The notes beneath the pieces are model-generated. The model ran no database searches, was not told where the DNA came from, and saw only the letters and a list, made by a program, of their open reading frames with translations. Positions 3,668 to 20,111 of a DNA stretch of 25,802 bases are shown here, piece after piece. How positions within the stretch are numbered: position 1 is the stretch's first letter; each line of letters starts with the position of its first letter. The stretch is from a virus, in IMG/VR virus record IMGVR_UViG_3300034418_002094, positions 1 to 25,802 of that record. One strand, 5' to 3'. The position numbers and the translations under genes were made by a program.

Positions 3668-3696
3668 ATTATACACCTAAGTGCGCCAATATCCAA
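3668..3696 (-). promoter_or_regulatory. Candidate sigma70 promoter for the portal operon
   Basis: On the minus strand TTGGAT (3696-3691) and a perfect TATAAT (3673-3668) are separated by 17 bases. The predicted start would lie about 25 bases before the portal ATG. It overlaps the 3' end of the terminase gene. The -35 is weak (3 of 6), so confidence rests on the -10 and spacing. Confidence 0.45.
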
Positions 3697-5215
3697 CCCT
3701 CTTTTGTCTTCTTGGGTTATAATCATCTTCCCAGTTAGGGTCGTCTGGGTGTGTAATATTCCAGCTGTCCTTCATATATTGAATAGCCATAGTCATAGCA
3801 TCCACTTGGTCATCATGTGCGCCATTGGGAAAGGCCAATGCTTCGTCATACAAATCACCAGCCCACTCCTTTCCACGTGGTATAAACAATCTACCTGCTT
3901 CCATAATTGGAGTAGAAGCATATACCCTGCTTACCTTGTCTCTGTCAGGCAGATACTCTAACACAGGCAGACCTGCTCTACGCATGTCCTGTATCAATGA
4001 CTGCCCTGAAGCTTTTTTCTCCACGATACACACATCTGGTCTGTGTTTCTGGAAAAGATGCTGCGCTACTCTACGAAGTTCTGGATATTCAAACCTGTCC
4101 TTGACATTCCCCAGTAGTATCAGACATGGCACGGCTGACTCAACACCATACTCATTACGTTCCATCTGGTAGAATATACCCCATGTCTGTATAACACTAT
4201 AGTCAGCAGTCTTACTGGTGGAGAATGCTGTGTCATAGGTTTGTATTAACATTTCACAACTAGGTGGGTCTTCATACTCCCACCATTGGAACCATTTCTT
4301 TTTAATAATGCCGCCTTCTTCTGGCGATGGGTTTTGCATATACAGTGCATCCCAGTAGCGGCTACCATTGCTTGAGCGTATCTCTTGCTCATCAACTCTA
4401 AGAACACTGTCAGGCTTCCACTCTGGAAAGTAGCTAGTACCTTCTGGTAAACCTAACAGATTGGCAGCTGTCTCATCTAGCCAAGCAGGAATACTAATTA
4501 CTTCCCACTTGTTCTCTGTCAGTTCATTCTCCTGCTTCAGCAGCCAGCCACACAGGTCATCGAAGTGATAGCGAGTATTAATAATGATAATAGCCCCATT
4601 AGGCATAAGACGAGTACGTAGACCAGAAGGCCACCATTCTTTAATATAACGTCTACCAGCTTCACTGAAACTATCCTCCTCTGACATTACATCATCCAGC
4701 AAGGCTAGGTGCGCACCACGACCTGCAATCTGTGACCTTACACCTGCAGCATAGTATGAGCCATTGTGGTTCGTCTTCCACTTACCTGCAGCCTTAACGT
4801 CACTGCGTAGCTGAACACCCTTGAACACACGCTGAAAGTCTTCTGTGTTTACCAAGTCCCTTACACTACGACCAAAGTCACTAGCCAGCTGGTCACTGTG
4901 TGACACAGACATAATTTCATGGTTAGGGTTACGCCCTATATACCACGCAGGAAAGAGCTTACTGGTTACCAGACTCTTAGAGCTACGTGGTGGTAGAAAC
5001 ACCATAAGCCTTTTAATCTCACCATCGGCTACCTTCTGCAGCCTGTCACACAATAACTCTATGTGTCTACCCATGTGAAAGTCAGACACAAGAGTAGGAG
5101 CAAACTTCCTGACATATGTTAGAAAGTCTTCCTTACACTTAGCAGTAATATAATTACCCAGTGCCTCATCAAACCCTATATAATTTTTAAAGTCTTCTAC
5201 TTGTTCTTGTATCAT
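3677..5215 (-). CDS. terL: Terminase large subunit (packaging ATPase-nuclease)
   Basis: The 512-residue protein shows both TerL domains. The ATPase has a Walker A-like loop PPRSSKS (75-81), a Walker B ALLDD (171-175) and a coupling motif NTR (213-215). The RNase H-like nuclease has three acidic clusters: D328 in QTYDTA, E399 in CIVEKK, and D468/D469 in GAHDDQVDAM. It docks on the portal, pumps DNA into the prohead and cuts concatemers. No small terminase is recognisable in the window. The ATG at 5215 has no clear Shine-Dalgarno, but the reading frame has no better in-frame start before residue 48. It is the first gene of the leftward arm, with a leader of about 150 bases if the promoter at 5372-5400 is used. 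Confidence 0.95.
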   Translation of the reverse strand: MIQEQVEDFKNYIGFDEALGNYITAKCKEDFLTYVRKFAPTLVSDFHMGRHIELLCDRLQKVADGEIKRLMVFLPPRSSKSLVTSKLFPAWYIGRNPNHEIMSVSHSDQLASDFGRSVRDLVNTEDFQRVFKGVQLRSDVKAAGKWKTNHNGSYYAAGVRSQIAGRGAHLALLDDVMSEEDSFSEAGRRYIKEWWPSGLRTRLMPNGAIIIINTRYHFDDLCGWLLKQENELTENKWEVISIPAWLDETAANLLGLPEGTSYFPEWKPDSVLRVDEQEIRSSNGSRYWDALYMQNPSPEEGGIIKKKWFQWWEYEDPPSCEMLIQTYDTAFSTSKTADYSVIQTWGIFYQMERNEYGVESAVPCLILLGNVKDRFEYPELRRVAQHLFQKHRPDVCIVEKKASGQSLIQDMRRAGLPVLEYLPDRDKVSRVYASTPIMEAGRLFIPRGKEWAGDLYDEALAFPNGAHDDQVDAMTMAIQYMKDSWNITHPDDPNWEDDYNPRRQKRVGYWRT

Positions 5216-5244
5216 ATTGTAACATTTCGTGATGTATCTGGGTA

Positions 5245-5273
5245 TTGTATGTTTGGAAAATCCATGCTATACT
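5245..5273 (+). promoter_or_regulatory. Rightward sigma70 promoter with extended -10
   Basis: TTGTAT (5245-5250) and TATACT (5268-5273) are 17 bases apart, and a TGC triplet just before the -10 makes an extended -10 element. It points away from the terminase gene. No gene with a ribosome site follows before the terminator at 5425-5487, so it may drive a short untranslated RNA. Confidence 0.55.
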
Positions 5274-5279
5274 AACTTT

Positions 5280-5486
5280 ACTTTAAAGTTGGAAGAAGAT
5301 ATATAGAACCTCGATAGCCCCGCCCCAGTTAATTATTATTATTACTATTATTACTTCCTACCATTAATGTAATTATACTTTATAATAATATTATATACAA
5401 CACAAAATACTATATACTACATACAACCTAGGCTGCCCCGCCGTTGATTGATAAATCAACAACGACAGTGGCCTGGGTTTTATTTT
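5280..5486 (+). ncRNA. Candidate short untranslated RNA, partly antisense to the terminase leader
   Basis: The stretch lies between a good promoter (5245-5273) and a hairpin-plus-T-run terminator (5425-5487), giving a predicted transcript of about 205 nt. It contains no open frame with a ribosome site; an ATG near 5368 is followed at once by TAA. The first part is AT-rich with TTA/TTATT repeats, and a GCCCCGCC motif occurs twice (near 5320 and 5435). The leftward terminase promoter at 5372-5400 lies inside it, so about 85 nt of the RNA would be antisense to the terminase leader. Only sequence logic supports it. Confidence 0.35.
5372..5400 (-). promoter_or_regulatory. Leftward sigma70 promoter for the terminase-portal arm
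   Basis: On the minus strand TTGTAT (5400-5395) and a perfect TATAAT (5377-5372) are 17 bases apart. The same TTGTAT -35 is used by the rightward promoter at 5245. It would start the structural transcript about 150 bases before terL. The surroundings are AT-rich, which raises the chance of a false match. Confidence 0.5.
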
Positions 5487-5487
5487 T
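5425..5487 (+). terminator. Compound hairpin with T-run, rightward terminator
   Basis: An outer 9-bp stem pairs AACCTAGGC (5425-5433) with GCCTGGGTT (5471-5479), with one G-T pair. Inside it a 7-bp stem pairs GTTGATT (5443-5449) with AATCAAC (5454-5460) around a GATA loop. A run of mostly T follows (5478-5490). On the opposite strand no T-run follows, so it should act rightward only. Confidence 0.6.
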
Positions 5488-5705
5488 TTTATACCCTGAT
5501 ATACCCTCTTATTTTTTTCTACTAATAGAACTACCTCTATTTCATTTTTATTTTGACCTACTAATTCCTGCACAAAAAATAGGCAATTACTTCCCAGAAT
5601 TTTGGAATATGATAAAGTTCCTTAATTTGGTCGGTATGTGTCAGGCACTATTTATATATACATATACACGCAGTTTTTTTGGGGTACCCTCTCAAACACC
5701 TCTAC

Positions 5706-5722
5706 TTGAGAATGATTCTCAA
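5706..5722. promoter_or_regulatory. Fur-box-like perfect palindrome
   Basis: TTGAGAATGATTCTCAA is a perfect 17-bp palindrome around G5714. Its inner 15 bases match the classical 7-1-7 Fur site TGATAATGATTATCA at 13 positions. It lies upstream of the gene at 5924 and 33 bp from a related palindrome at 5740-5754. Fur-family regulators (Fur, Mur, Irr) are the natural candidates from established knowledge; binding by a host protein is inference. Confidence 0.5.
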
Positions 5723-5739
5723 TAGCAAAAGGATGCTTT

Positions 5740-5754
5740 TTAGAACGATTCTAA
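5740..5754. promoter_or_regulatory. Irr/ICE-like palindrome
   Basis: TTAGAA-CGA-TTCTAA is a perfect inverted repeat with a 3-base centre. Including one flanking base on each side it matches the alphaproteobacterial iron control element TTTAGAA-N3-TTCTAAA, as I recall it, at 13 of 14 defined positions. It also matches the neighbouring palindrome at 5706-5722 at 13 of 17 positions, so the two may be paired operators of one regulator. Confidence 0.45.
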
Positions 5755-5776
5755 TTTGCATTTGCGCTTGTCCCAT

Positions 5777-5792
5777 TGTTTCACGTGAAACA
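5777..5792. promoter_or_regulatory. parS: parS, consensus ParB-binding site
   Basis: TGTTTCACGTGAAACA is a perfect 16-bp palindrome and exactly fits the conserved bacterial chromosomal parS consensus TGTTNCACGTGAAACA, which also holds in alphaproteobacteria. No ParA or ParB gene is present in the window, so any binding would depend on the host ParB or a phage gene elsewhere. It lies in the control region, 140 bp before the gene at 5924. A 7-bp inverted pair, ATTTGCA (5754-5760) and TGCAAAT (5802-5808), flanks it. The sequence match is certain; the function in the phage is inferred. Confidence 0.8.
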
Positions 5793-5885
5793 TTGTAGTG
5801 TTGCAAATATGTCACACAATAAAAATAATTTATGCCCCATGCTTTTTTCTATTGACTATGACCCCAACCTATGCCCCTATGTACT

Positions 5886-5908
5886 TAGGCGATGTTGCCT
5901 AGTTTTTT
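5886..5908 (+). terminator. Weak hairpin plus T-run just before a gene (attenuator-like)
   Basis: TAGGC (5886-5890) pairs with GCCTA (5897-5901) around a GATGTT loop and is followed by six T. The Shine-Dalgarno of the gene at 5924 starts within 3 bases of the T-run. It could end transcripts from upstream or attenuate entry into that gene. A 5-bp stem makes this a weak terminator. Confidence 0.35.
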
Positions 5909-5923
5909 GAAAGGAAATTGACC

Positions 5924-6136
5924 ATGACTATCGAATTGACCAACCCTACCCGCGCTGTTGCCATTGTAGATATAAGCGACCAACACCGCGAGTATTGCCG
6001 CGAGCAAGGCATACGCTTCGAGTTTGATTATGGGGCTATGCTCGATTCTTTATATCCCGCGCTTAAAGAGGAATATCCCCAAGAACGCGCTAAAATTTTA
6101 GGCTATGTTTATAAATTGCTGAATAAATACGCATAA
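5924..6136 (+). CDS. Hypothetical 70-aa protein of the control region
   Basis: The ATG at 5924 is chosen over an in-frame TTG at 5918 because AAGGA ends 8 bases before it. The product is a soluble, acidic-to-neutral protein with a C-terminal helix-rich half (EEYPQERAKILGYVYKLLNKYA) and no recognised motif. It stands alone between an attenuator-like hairpin and a good terminator, inside the repeat-rich control region. Its codons use CGC and GCG noticeably more than the genes further right. A regulator of the nearby repeats is a natural guess, but no helix-turn-helix is evident. Confidence 0.75.
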   Translation: MTIELTNPTRAVAIVDISDQHREYCREQGIRFEFDYGAMLDSLYPALKEEYPQERAKILGYVYKLLNKYA

Positions 6137-6145
6137 ATGAGAGAG

Positions 6146-6173
6146 AACCCGCCATTAGTGCGGGTTTTCTTTT
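6146..6173 (+). terminator. Rho-independent terminator
   Basis: AACCCGC (6146-6152) pairs perfectly with GCGGGTT (6160-6166) around a 7-base loop, followed by TTTTCTTTT. It lies 9 bases after the stop of the 70-aa gene and isolates it from the repeats downstream. Confidence 0.85.
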
Positions 6174-6194
6174 GCCTAAAATTAGAACAAAAAG

Positions 6195-6238
6195 AGAACA
6201 AAACGTAAACAAAACAAGAACATAACGTGAACAAACAG
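6195..6238 (+). repeat. Two tandem 22-bp repeats rich in GAACA
   Basis: Unit 1 (6195-6216) begins AGAACAAAACGTAAACAAA and unit 2 (6217-6238) begins AGAACATAACGTGAACAAA. They follow each other without a gap and differ at only a few positions. Partial copies flank them (TTAGAACA at 6182, GTGAACATC at 6238). Direct repeats of about two helical turns next to other repeat families are typical of replication origins; this is inference. Confidence 0.6.
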
Positions 6239-6250
6239 TGAACATCGGGC

Positions 6251-6312
6251 TGCCTAAAAAGTAGGCATATGCTCATTATTTAGGCATTCAAAATATGATT
6301 AAAAAATAGGCA
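6251..6312. repeat. Cluster of TAGGCA / TGCCTA elements
   Basis: TGCCTA (6251-6256) and TAGGCA (6262-6267) form an inverted pair around AAAAG, and TAGGCA recurs at 6281-6286 and 6307-6312. Further copies in the control region lie at 5580-5585, 6173-6178 (inverted), 6671-6683 (head to head) and 6813-6818, and the hairpin at 5886-5901 is built from the same core. The density in about 1.2 kb of intergenic DNA looks non-random, but I cannot compute it. Confidence 0.45.
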
Positions 6313-6330
6313 AAATATGAGCCGCCAGAG

Positions 6331-6553
6331 TGTCAAAATTATGACACTTCATGCCTTCATCAGTCCGTCAAAATCTTGACAGTGTCAGAAAATTGACAGG
6401 GTAAATCCTGCTGGTTGTGTCAAATTATTGACATTGACAATGGGCATAAAATCATGCTAATCTAAAAGATTAAAAATAATTTACTGTCAAAAAATTGACA
6501 TGTCAAAATACTGACGCGTCAAAAAATTGACTGTCAAATTATTGGCATTGACA
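6331..6553. repeat. Array of eight 16-bp palindromes, TGTCAAA-N3-TTGACA type
   Basis: Sites of 16 bp lie at 6331-6346, 6366-6381, 6383-6398, 6418-6433, 6485-6500, 6501-6516, 6517-6532 and 6532-6547. Each is a perfect or nearly perfect inverted repeat (for example TGTCAAAAAATTGACA at 6485). Sites 5-7 are head to tail with a 16-bp period and site 8 shares one base with site 7. Sites 4 and 8 are each followed by the extra half-site TTGACAATG, so 6418-6442 and 6532-6556 are a 24/25-match direct repeat. An AT-rich spacer (6446-6484) with the palindrome TAATCTAAAAGATTA (6458-6472) separates the two groups. This fits origin iterons or a multi-operator repressor site; the binding protein is unknown. 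Confidence 0.8.
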
Positions 6554-6570
6554 ATGTGGGCAGAATATGC

Positions 6571-6594
6571 AACGCGTGCGCACGTTCTTTTTTT
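6571..6594 (+). other. GC-rich palindrome followed by T-run
   Basis: The run around CGTGCGCACG (6574-6583, a perfect 10-bp palindrome) is preceded by AACG, can pair with the following CGTT, and is followed by CTTTTTTT. It may be a weak rightward terminator closing the repeat array, or a protein-binding site. Its GC-rich core stands out in very AT-rich DNA. Confidence 0.3.
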
Positions 6595-6622
6595 ATATTT
6601 TAGAAAAAGAAAAACCTATCCT

Positions 6623-6639
6623 AAAAGATAGTATCTTTT
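6623..6639. other. Perfect 17-bp palindrome
   Basis: AAAAGATAGTATCTTTT is perfectly symmetric around G6631. It lies between the repeat array and the early promoter. A binding site or small RNA hairpin is possible; nothing else identifies it. Confidence 0.4.
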
Positions 6640-6670
6640 TAAAATTGGTTCGGGTATATTCAAAAAACGA

Positions 6671-6683
6671 TAGGCAATGCCTA
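6671..6683. repeat. Head-to-head TAGGCA palindrome
   Basis: TAGGCAATGCCTA is a perfect 13-bp palindrome made of two copies of the TAGGCA element. It lies about 50 bp upstream of the early promoter, where an operator or activator site would act. Confidence 0.4.
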
Positions 6684-6696
6684 ACCGAAAACGCCA

Positions 6697-6758
6697 ATAA
6701 AAAAAAATAAAAAAAAGTTAAAAAAAGTGTTGACTAGGGTTTTAGGTTTTGCTATAGT
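6697..6758 (+). promoter_or_regulatory. Strong early promoter with upstream A-tracts
   Basis: TTGACT (6730-6735) and TATAGT (6753-6758) are exactly 17 bases apart. The 30 bases upstream are almost all A in phased tracts (6697-6727), as in an UP element or bent promoter DNA. It would start the rightward early transcript near 6765, about 60 bases before the gene at 6823. It reads as a host sigma70 promoter. Confidence 0.85.
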
Positions 6759-6822
6759 CGGAACATAAAGAAAAGCGAAGCAGTCACGAATTGAGTCGCT
6801 AGCATAGAAAGGTAGGCAAGAT

Positions 6823-7026
6823 ATGGCTAATAAACGCCAACGCGCCAAGGCAAGGCAAGTCCGTATTGCGGCAAGCGATGCACTGGCACAACATTGGACA
6901 GGCTGTCAAACTATTGACAGTATCGAGATACTAGAACGCAATATGTCGCGGGCTAGTGAGGTACAACGCAAGTATCACCGAATATCGCATATTTCATATA
7001 CGAAAAATCGGTTTTCGACAATATAA
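6823..7026 (+). CDS. Small basic early protein (67 aa)
   Basis: This is the first gene after the strong early promoter. An AAAGG lies about 10 bases before the ATG. The N-terminus is very basic (KRQRAKARQVR at residues 4-14) and the protein is Arg/Lys-rich throughout, so it probably binds nucleic acid. No known fold is recognisable. The coding sequence contains a perfect copy of the TGTCAA palindrome found in the control region (6904-6919). A strong terminator follows 8 bases after the stop, so the gene may be its own transcription unit. Immediate-early host takeover or autoregulation would fit, without proof. Confidence 0.75.
   Translation: MANKRQRAKARQVRIAASDALAQHWTGCQTIDSIEILERNMSRASEVQRKYHRISHISYTKNRFSTI
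6904..6919. repeat. Ninth TGTCAA palindrome, inside a coding sequence
   Basis: TGTCAAACTATTGACA has perfect 6-bp arms around ACTA and the same 16-bp length as the intergenic sites. It lies about 150 bp downstream of the early promoter, inside the first early gene. It may act as a downstream operator or roadblock for the factor that binds the array. Confidence 0.65.
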
Positions 7027-7033
7027 AAAAATT

Positions 7034-7062
7034 GGCTGGCCATTATTGGCTAGCCTTTTTTT
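7034..7062 (+). terminator. Strong rho-independent terminator
   Basis: GGCTGGCCA (7034-7042) pairs with TGGCTAGCC (7047-7055), 9 bp with one G-T pair, around a TTAT loop, followed by seven T. It ends the transcript of the 67-aa gene. Confidence 0.9.
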
Positions 7063-7106
7063 ATCCTATATCAAACGCAAGCTAGTCTGTAGGGGCTGGC
7101 TTGCGC

Positions 7107-7134
7107 TTGCTATGTGGCAAGGCTAGTGTAACTA
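7107..7134 (+). promoter_or_regulatory. Weak promoter sharing a 15-bp block with the next promoter
   Basis: TTGCTA (7107-7112) and TAACTA (7129-7134) are 16 bases apart. The spacer and -10 start with GGCAAGGCTAGTGTA (7116-7130), identical to 7362-7376 in the promoter before the glycosylase-like gene. It sits between a strong terminator and the gene at 7151, where a promoter is needed. Confidence 0.45.
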
Positions 7135-7150
7135 ACGAATAGGTGAAACT

Positions 7151-7348
7151 ATGATTTACAAAACACGCAATGAATGGGACGGACAATTTGTGGACGGGCT
7201 GTTTTTCTATAAGAAAACTGTAACACGCGAGAAGTACTTCAATCCGATGCCAAAGCTATACCGCACACGCATGGGGCTGGTATTCGACTGGGGCTATAAG
7301 CAAGTCGTGTTCAAGAAAGCCTTTGGCTATAAGCTAGGCAAAAAATAA
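7151..7348 (+). CDS. Hypothetical basic early protein (65 aa)
   Basis: The ATG has AGGTGA about 5 bases upstream. The product is basic and rich in aromatic residues (FVDGLFFYKK, FDWGYKQVVF, FGYKLGKK) and ends in Lys-Lys. No membrane segment or family is recognised. It seems to be transcribed from its own weak promoter, with another promoter starting right after its stop, so the early genes here are separately controlled. Confidence 0.7.
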   Translation: MIYKTRNEWDGQFVDGLFFYKKTVTREKYFNPMPKLYRTRMGLVFDWGYKQVVFKKAFGYKLGKK

Positions 7349-7351
7349 GCA

Positions 7352-7380
7352 TTGACTGTAGGGCAAGGCTAGTGTATACC
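7352..7380 (+). promoter_or_regulatory. Sigma70 promoter
   Basis: TTGACT (7352-7357) and TATACC (7375-7380) are 17 bases apart. It starts 3 bases after the stop of the 65-aa gene and about 70 bases before the gene at 7428. Confidence 0.7.
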
Positions 7381-7427
7381 TAGTCTTGCCTTATGGTGAG
7401 TGTTTAACATAGAGAGAGGAGCAGTTT

Positions 7428-8027
7428 ATGTATAAAACACATCAACCGCGCATCGGTAAGTATGCGCTTAAATCGGCAGACAATATGGCTAAAGTTATCT
7501 ATATGGTCAGTCTGTCTATTCAGCAACCATGGCATTCTGTAGGCAATCAACTTGCAGATGTTATGACTGTGGGACGCAAGTCTCGCTTTCTGTGGGGCAG
7601 TAAAGGCAAGCTTTTTGACTATGTACAAAAGCATAAGCATGAGTTATTCCTTGCCCTAAATGACTACAAAAAAGGCAGAATTGACCTAGCAGATTTGCTA
7701 GTCCGCTTTGCAGAAGTGGACGGGCTGGGGCTGGTTAAGGCTGGTTTTGTGTTGCAGTTATGCTTGGGTGAAGTGGGCTGTCTCGACATTCATAATCTGC
7801 GGATGTATGGTGTTAATGCGGCAGATTTCAAATACACCAAGAATGCAACGCCAGAGTTGAAAAAGCGCAAGGCAGAATTGTATATTGGCATGTGCGAGAA
7901 ACTTGGCGGCAGTGAGAAACTGTGGGATACTTGGTGCGACAATCTGGCAAACAATCCCCGTTGCCGTAAGTATTTCACAAGCAAGCACCATGTGTCACGG
8001 GTGCATTGTGAATTCTTGGAGGCATAA
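7428..8027 (+). CDS. HhH-GPD-like DNA glycosylase-related protein
   Basis: The 199-residue product has, at residues 97-128, a helix-hairpin-helix-like stretch: GLGLVKAGFV followed by VGCLDIHNLRMYG. This resembles the GVGRKTA hairpin and the VDTH catalytic-aspartate region of endonuclease III/HhH-GPD glycosylases, which remove damaged or modified bases. K104 and D120 would be the lysine and aspartate, though the lysine is one residue off the classical spacing. The protein is short for the family and no Fe-S cysteine cluster is evident. GAGAGGAG precedes the ATG. It is an early gene with its own promoter, so a role in attacking or protecting DNA early in infection is possible. Confidence 0.55.
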   Translation: MYKTHQPRIGKYALKSADNMAKVIYMVSLSIQQPWHSVGNQLADVMTVGRKSRFLWGSKGKLFDYVQKHKHELFLALNDYKKGRIDLADLLVRFAEVDGLGLVKAGFVLQLCLGEVGCLDIHNLRMYGVNAADFKYTKNATPELKKRKAELYIGMCEKLGGSEKLWDTWCDNLANNPRCRKYFTSKHHVSRVHCEFLEA

Positions 8028-8996: not shown

Positions 8997-9296
8997 ATGA
9001 TGAAAAACTTTGAAATTGTAGATGGCGCAGTGAAAGGCACTGCCTCTGCCGTTATTGATATATCATTTGATATAAATCTGGCAGACCTTGAGTGCAGTCT
9101 GGAAGGCGAGGCACTTGACGCAGAGGATTTTCTTGATATAATCAAGGACAACATAGAAGCAGAAGTAAGCAGGTATATTGAAGGCAGATGGATAGGTGGG
9201 TATGTAGGAGGTGGCCTATCCTTAGACTGTAACAAAACCGATGTGCATGAACTAGAAATTGAAGCAGAGGTAGAGGAAGTAGAAGATGACGACTAA
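8997..9296 (+). CDS. Hypothetical highly acidic protein (99 aa)
   Basis: The frame begins ATGATG 2 bases after the preceding stop. The product is very acidic and ends in a tail dominated by Glu/Asp (EIEAEVEEVEDDD). The middle has a Gly-rich turn (GRWIGGYVGGGLSLD). Acid tails can mimic nucleic acid or bind basic partners. The next gene overlaps its 3' end by 11 bases. Confidence 0.7.
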   Translation: MMKNFEIVDGAVKGTASAVIDISFDINLADLECSLEGEALDAEDFLDIIKDNIEAEVSRYIEGRWIGGYVGGGLSLDCNKTDVHELEIEAEVEEVEDDD

Positions 9297-9462
9297 GATT
9301 GTACAGATAGACCACGATGTATTGTCTGACTTACTATTGGCAAGCCATTCAGCTACGACTGTAGCTATGTCAGAGGAATACCCTACGCTATACAAAGATT
9401 ATGTGAAGGCACAAGACAAGGCACGACAAGCCTTAAAGTGGGGTGAGTATGGCGAAGAATGA
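9286..9462 (+). CDS. Hypothetical protein (58 aa)
   Basis: The ATG at 9286 lies inside the end of the preceding gene, with GAGGAAG about 8 bases upstream, an arrangement typical of translational coupling. The product is mostly helical and soluble (VLSDLLLASHSATT, then YVKAQDKARQALKWGEYGEE). Its end overlaps the next gene by 14 bases. Confidence 0.6.
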   Translation: MTTKIVQIDHDVLSDLLLASHSATTVAMSEEYPTLYKDYVKAQDKARQALKWGEYGEE

Positions 9463-20034: not shown

Positions 20035-20111
20035 GGACACGTAGCTCAACTGGATAGAGCAACAGCCTTCTAAGCTGTAGGTTGCAGGTTCAAGTCCTGC
20101 CGTGTTCGCCA
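20035..20111 (+). tRNA. tRNA-Arg(TCT) with encoded CCA
   Basis: A full cloverleaf is visible: acceptor GGACACG (20035-20041) pairs with CGTGTTC (20101-20107), D-arm GCTC...GAGC, anticodon arm ACAGC-CTTCTAA-GCTGT with anticodon TCT, and T-arm GCAGG-TTCAAGT-CCTGC. The discriminator is G and the CCA is encoded (20109-20111). It reads AGA and AGG, codons that are rare in GC-rich alphaproteobacterial hosts but used by this AT-richer phage. It lies in an operon between two protein genes. Confidence 0.97.

Follow-up and report, generated by a model that had tools for sequence, protein, structure and literature searches.

A conserved array of two-fold palindromes in the divergent control region of a T7-like phage genome fragment

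The single divergent intergenic region of a marine phage genome fragment of 25,802 bases, a virus record from IMG/VR that was analysed at full length and is referred to here as the window, holds a dense array of 16-bp two-fold palindromes. Several of these conserved two-fold sites are clustered in the early control region, the same cluster is kept at the same place in related phages, and direct repeats that look like sites for host LexA lie just upstream. We hypothesize that the array is a cluster of cooperative operators that governs early transcription through a dimeric binding protein, host LexA being a second input, a proposal to which we give about an even chance of being correct. More generally, the early genes of the phage are probably switched at this control region by DNA-binding proteins, and the array is best read as a member of the phage operator regions, which are a kind of element already known.

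The palindrome array and its conservation

The gene set of the window is T7-like and lytic-looking. Its leftward genes are a portal-type gene and the gene for the terminase large subunit (terL, 3677–5215, minus strand, in the leftward late module), while the rightward genes form the early and replication module, which includes primase-helicase, PolA, a gp2.5-like SSB, an endonuclease, ThyX and ribonucleotide reductase. Most of the non-coding DNA of the window sits between these two modules, in the intergenic region that holds the array. The phage also carries a tRNA-Arg gene with the anticodon TCT at 20035–20111. Its host is probably an alphaproteobacterium, because the best-matching cultured phages and the LexA-type boxes both indicate one, and on the same grounds of sequence the host order is most likely Rhodobacterales.

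Eight sites with at most two mismatches to TGTCAANNNNTTGACA start at 6331, 6366, 6383, 6418, 6485, 6501, 6517 and 6532 and span 6331–6547, confirming the eight palindromes that an initial annotation of this DNA had placed at 6331–6553; 3000 dinucleotide shuffles of 6137–6822 contained 0–2 such sites. The first three (TGTCAAAATTATGACA, 6331–6346; CGTCAAAATCTTGACA, 6366–6381; TGTCAGAAAATTGACA, 6383–6398) have one mismatch each, and the fourth (TGTCAAATTATTGACA, 6418–6433) is perfect and is directly followed by an extra half-site, TTGACAATG, that runs to 6442. The packed group is opened by another perfect site (TGTCAAAAAATTGACA, 6485–6500) and continues with two sites of two mismatches each (TGTCAAAATACTGACG, 6501–6516; CGTCAAAAAATTGACT, 6517–6532) and a last one with a single mismatch (TGTCAAATTATTGGCA, 6532–6547), behind which the extra half-site TTGACAATG again follows directly, to 6556. 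An exact TTGACATTGACAA junction of this site-plus-half-site type also occurs at palindromes in contigs L010/L049 and L058/L309.

The details given in the initial annotation need some revision. The near-perfect symmetry described there holds as symmetry, but is perfect in just two of the eight sites (6418 and 6485); the packed group comprises four sites instead of three; and the 16-bp period reported for 6485–6532 consists of steps of 16, 16 and then 15 bp, with the last two sites sharing one base. The consensus is better written as TGTCAA-N4-TTGACA than as TGTCAAA-N3-TTGACA, because the seventh base is A in just 55% of 85 sites from relatives. A ninth, perfect palindrome (TGTCAAACTATTGACA, 6904–6919), which lies beyond the span first described and had been missed, brings the total for the control region to nine; it is located 3' of the early promoter, inside a 67-aa ORF without a family match (6823–7026, plus strand), the first ORF 3' of that promoter, and is a candidate auxiliary operator. 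Over the whole window, and with up to three mismatches allowed, 33 sites were counted, whereas shuffles averaged 14 and never exceeded 25.

The small palindrome attributed to the AT-rich spacer is present (AATCT-AAA-AGATT, about 6459–6471). The array has no unique spacers of constant length, in agreement with the earlier view that it is unlike a CRISPR, and we rejected the CRISPR reading on this ground. Single-stranded folding of the array beats that of shuffles (z = −4.9), a score that carries little weight because palindromes yield such folding by construction, and a search of 5000–7500 for structured RNA gave no Rfam match. TGCCTA/TAGGCA elements, some of which form small palindromes such as TGCCTAAAAAGTAGGCA, recur at 6173–6312 and 6671–6683, and their count across the whole window is within chance.

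Relatives were gathered by terL protein alone. The same palindrome was found at the same location in L187 and L196 (terL 84–86% identical), in L229, L235, L239 and L241 (74–76%), and in L259 and L261 (70%); L182–L184 are the same species and do not count as independent. Across 1.52 Mb of loci that had been collected through protein homology alone, TGTCAA and TTGACA are separated by N4 in 24 cases, near-duplicate contigs included, versus 0–7 cases at any other gap. Between L187 and L196, the core bases are 98.3% identical and the spacers and remaining bases 77.3% (Fisher p = 1.6e-5); between L229 and L239/L235, the values are 98.2% for the core and 91.3% for the rest (p = 1e-3). The L058/L309 pair is too similar to tell, and the same comparison was not significant there (p = 0.22). 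The palindrome sites are under purifying selection. The initial annotation had named a lack of conservation in relatives among the outcomes that would argue against an origin; the motif is conserved, and that outcome did not occur.

Each genome has one cluster of sites; for example, all seven sites of a 37.5-kb relative fall within about 620 bp. Scans of virus collections with the motif only, without homology, returned many contigs in which the same terL family adjoins the array, and also unrelated phages (L301, L302, L307, L311, L312, L314 and L315). The palindrome is absent from other close relatives (L194/L195, L208), and some of these bear other repeats there; the palindrome-less relative L248 has nine copies of a 12-bp repeat of the CATGCAAAGATA type at 9133–9340, in the same place upstream of terL. 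The array was not found in the 13 cultured phages checked, a DNA similarity search of the control region against cultured phages gave chance-level matches only, and we found no description of the motif in phages in the literature.

The early promoter and neighbouring sites

The best sigma70-like promoter of the region lies on the plus strand at 6730–6758, has an extended TG in addition to its TTGACT-17-TATAGT elements and points into the early genes. The array lies about 180–400 bp upstream of this promoter and not over it, and with the ninth site downstream, palindromes flank the promoter on both sides without overlap. An early-direction promoter is found about 180–275 bp beyond the array in the window, in L058/L309 and in L229/L239.

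Just upstream of the array, at 6185–6245 (plus strand), are 11-bp tandem repeats of the form GAAC-N7-GAAC, or GTTC-N7-GTTC on the other strand, iteron-like or LexA-like elements that the initial annotation overlooked. They are direct repeats with strict spacing: near palindrome clusters, GTTC-N7-GTTC was counted 35 times (near-duplicate contigs included), versus 14 times for N18, which is a harmonic of N7, and at most 7 times for every other spacing. The alphaproteobacterial LexA box is GTTC-N7-GTTC and that of Caulobacter is GTTCttgttatGTTC (PMC12700426); the 11-bp repeats match this box, but in the phages of the lineage the half-sites continue as tandem arrays. One copy, in phage contig L010/L049, is identical to the Caulobacter GTTCttgttatGTTC. 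The LexA-type pattern derived from the phages, TTTGTTCNNNNTTTGTTC, has eight matches in a 4.6-Mb Shinella replicon, compared with none for a reversed-pattern control, and two of the eight adjoin SOS-type genes, namely uvrA and an imuB/uvrD-like pair. All five LexA-type boxes of the complete relative G004 (56,368 bp, with an end overlap of 141 bp) lie inside its control region. Two boxes of this kind are also present near the record end of the cultured Rhodobacteraceae phage CRP-9, where they adjoin the homologue of the 199-aa gene described below. These repeats are more widely kept in the lineage than the palindromes, and those at 6185–6245 are predicted to be host LexA sites.

The control region has further sites that resemble those of host proteins. 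A perfect 16-bp parS sequence, TGTTTCACGTGAAACA, is located at 5777–5792; it is present in three same-species contigs and absent from the other relatives. Two Irr/ICE-like palindromes at 5706–5756 (TGAGAATGATTCTCA at 5707 and TTAGAACGATTCTAA at 5740) also occur in relatives, and lineage loci totalling 736 kb have 10 instances of TTAGAA-N3-TTCTAA, versus 0–1 at other spacings. Both the parS and the Irr-type assignments are candidates, made by likeness of sequence only.

Taken together, we infer from these sites that a protein binds the array, and likewise which promoter it targets, with what sign, and what kind of protein it might be. Each 16-bp two-fold site would take one dimer of a sequence-specific DNA-binding protein, and adjacent dimers, 15–17 bp apart in the packed group, would load cooperatively. 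The lone perfect ninth site, about 146 bp 3' of the −10 box of the early promoter, might then act through looping or as a roadblock. The likeliest output would be repression or timing of the rightward 6730–6758 promoter, and host LexA may provide a second input at the tandem GAAC-N7-GAAC boxes. The array binder would probably be a host regulator, because the scanned phage ORFs yielded no regulator, or else a phage protein without a recognised family. It is conceivable that host regulators run the early switch altogether, with LexA (DNA damage), an Irr-like iron regulator, ParB at parS and a further host factor at the array, so that a phage without its own repressor would have the start, pause or persistence of infection set by the state of the host, but this larger scheme strikes us as doubtful.

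Candidate binding proteins and comparable systems

Scans of 59 early ORFs from the window and from G004 with Pfam and PHROG, the latter judged on the 25 most frequent of 58 families, found no regulator (repressor, LexA or other HTH protein), and the usual arrangement of autoregulation by a repressor encoded nearby is, as judged from these scans, absent. No integrase was found in 24 records, and neither the window nor the early ORFs of G004 yielded a recognisable initiator gene, many ORFs having no family. The Crp-type HTH (PF13545) was present only in two unrelated array phages and not in the window or the terL-lineage records searched; the unrelated array phages scanned have no regulator family in common.

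Small phage proteins without a family could be the array binder. We considered the 199-aa protein encoded at 7428–8027 (plus strand), whose gene is the early gene most widely common to array-bearing relatives and which has no Pfam or PHROG match. Its predicted model (pLDDT 94) is HhH DNA-glycosylase-like, with Ogg-type DNA glycosylases as the nearest folds at weak E-values (0.07 at best), and K104 and D120 are invariant. The protein was rejected as array binder on account of this glycosylase-like predicted fold and the presence of its gene in the array-less phages L208 and L222 as well.

Among bacterial genomes, TGTCAA-N4-TTGACA had no perfect match in 5.5 Mb of alphaproteobacterial replicons, and a widespread host regulator is unlikely, because the palindrome is not common in the replicons tested. 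Elsewhere, 24 Paenibacillus/Cohnella-type loci (within L324–L363) have a pair of the identical palindrome, abutting or nearly so, flanked by the genes for a sugar-binding lipoprotein and a LacI-family regulator, and Demequina has the identical palindrome beside a MarR gene, the families of these neighbours having been read from protein sequences. These palindromes support the operator reading, because they are located where operators are expected. They share all 12 fixed bases with the phage sites and likewise form adjacent pairs, 16–18 bp apart for the LacI type and 22–23 bp apart for the MarR type, but many LacI-type sites have CG at the centre where the phage sites have A/T, and a regulator gene adjoins the bacterial sites whereas none adjoins the phage array. 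An attempt to name the binder from the motif failed, the neighbours being LacI in one group and MarR in the other.

Control regions of the lambda OL/OR type have clustered two-fold operators of about 16–17 bp beside an early promoter and an outlying operator elsewhere. The phage likewise has close-set two-fold sites by an early promoter and one outlying site, but unlike in lambda no repressor gene was found beside the sites and, in the records searched, no integrase, and the phage sites are more numerous and more tightly packed. Sites of the CRP/FNR family have the form TGTGA-N6-TCACA, or TGTCA-N6-CGACA for CooA. The phage TGTCA-N6-TGACA equals them in length and two-fold geometry; however, no Crp-type HTH was found in the phage or the terL relatives searched, and the phage sites abut at 15–17 bp, which is tight for a CRP dimer. 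GIL01 of Bacillus thuringiensis, a phage that is temperate without integrating and has a Gram-positive host, is controlled through host LexA. The window resembles it in the putative host-LexA sites of its control region, but differs in its T7-like gene set, the lack of a recognised repressor and the alphaproteobacterial type of its boxes. GIL01 and LexA are the stated subject of PMC9700832.

Alternative explanations and implications

Several alternatives to an operator cluster have to be weighed, and those grouped under ALTERNATIVES are a replication origin, a packaging start and a bank of −35 boxes. In an origin, the array, and perhaps also the 11-bp repeats, would be initiator-binding sites beside AT-rich melting DNA, which is possible though unlikely. 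The DNA beside the array is about 68–72% AT, and the cumulative GC-skew minimum of the 37.5-kb relative (33581) falls within its array (33417–34037); the window has its minimum at 5987, and G004 has its minimum at 6371 and its maximum at the convergent end, 39760. However, the skew flips with gene orientation, so that replication and transcription are inseparable and transcription alone would explain the minimum. The different repeats at the same place in other lineage members (the 12-bp repeat in L248) would be expected if iterons and initiator change together, but close relatives with the same replication genes are without palindromes. Moreover, the sites are two-fold palindromes without a common orientation rather than direct repeats in one orientation, as iterons would be; the 11-bp repeats beside them do run directly, but they fit the LexA box; and neither a DnaA box nor, in the window and the early ORFs of G004, an initiator gene was found. 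The initial annotation had proposed dense sites for a DNA-binding protein, a reading that the sequence supports, and had left iterons and cooperative repressor sites side by side; the latter are the better option, given the palindromic sites, the failure to find an initiator gene and the array-less close relatives.

It is improbable that the array serves titration, with its copies on many phage genomes acting as decoys for a host regulator and the LexA-type boxes doing likewise for LexA. Such a role would suit the many sites lying together with no promoter directly underneath, and the co-location of elements similar to host LexA, Irr and ParB sites, but the alphaproteobacterial replicons tested yielded no host regulon with the palindrome, and decoys would be free to sit anywhere, yet the lineage keeps the array in the control region. 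The proximity of the array to terL, and to a terS gene in L092, L310, L302 and L307, might instead suggest a pac site, at which the small terminase would bind to start packaging. This is highly improbable: no terS was found beside the array of the window, terS of G004, at 41.1–41.6 kb, is separated from both terL and the control region by roughly 20 kb, the array of L317, L320 and L322 is at the 3' side of terL, and the contigs continue through the array, which argues against a fixed cut end. A bank of −35 boxes, in which the TTGACA arms would form multiple promoters, is likewise highly improbable. A suitably spaced −10 accompanies few of the arms, and the −35 mimicry suggested at the outset is not supported, as promoter-like matches show no excess (8, versus a shuffle mean of 9.0), even though every arm is a consensus −35 hexamer and a promoter-like match in L229/L239 has its −35 overlapped by the outlying site. 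Such a bank would also leave unexplained why the two-fold symmetry is conserved and the N4 gap fixed.

The operator cluster remains our preferred and most economical reading, and it concerns the control regions of uncultured marine phages, which have received little study. Should host LexA and a second factor indeed gate the early genes, the outcome of infection would depend on host stress. The array offers a direct bait for finding its binding factor, and close relatives, among which the type of site at this one position changes fast, provide a natural experiment on the regulatory rewiring of phages.
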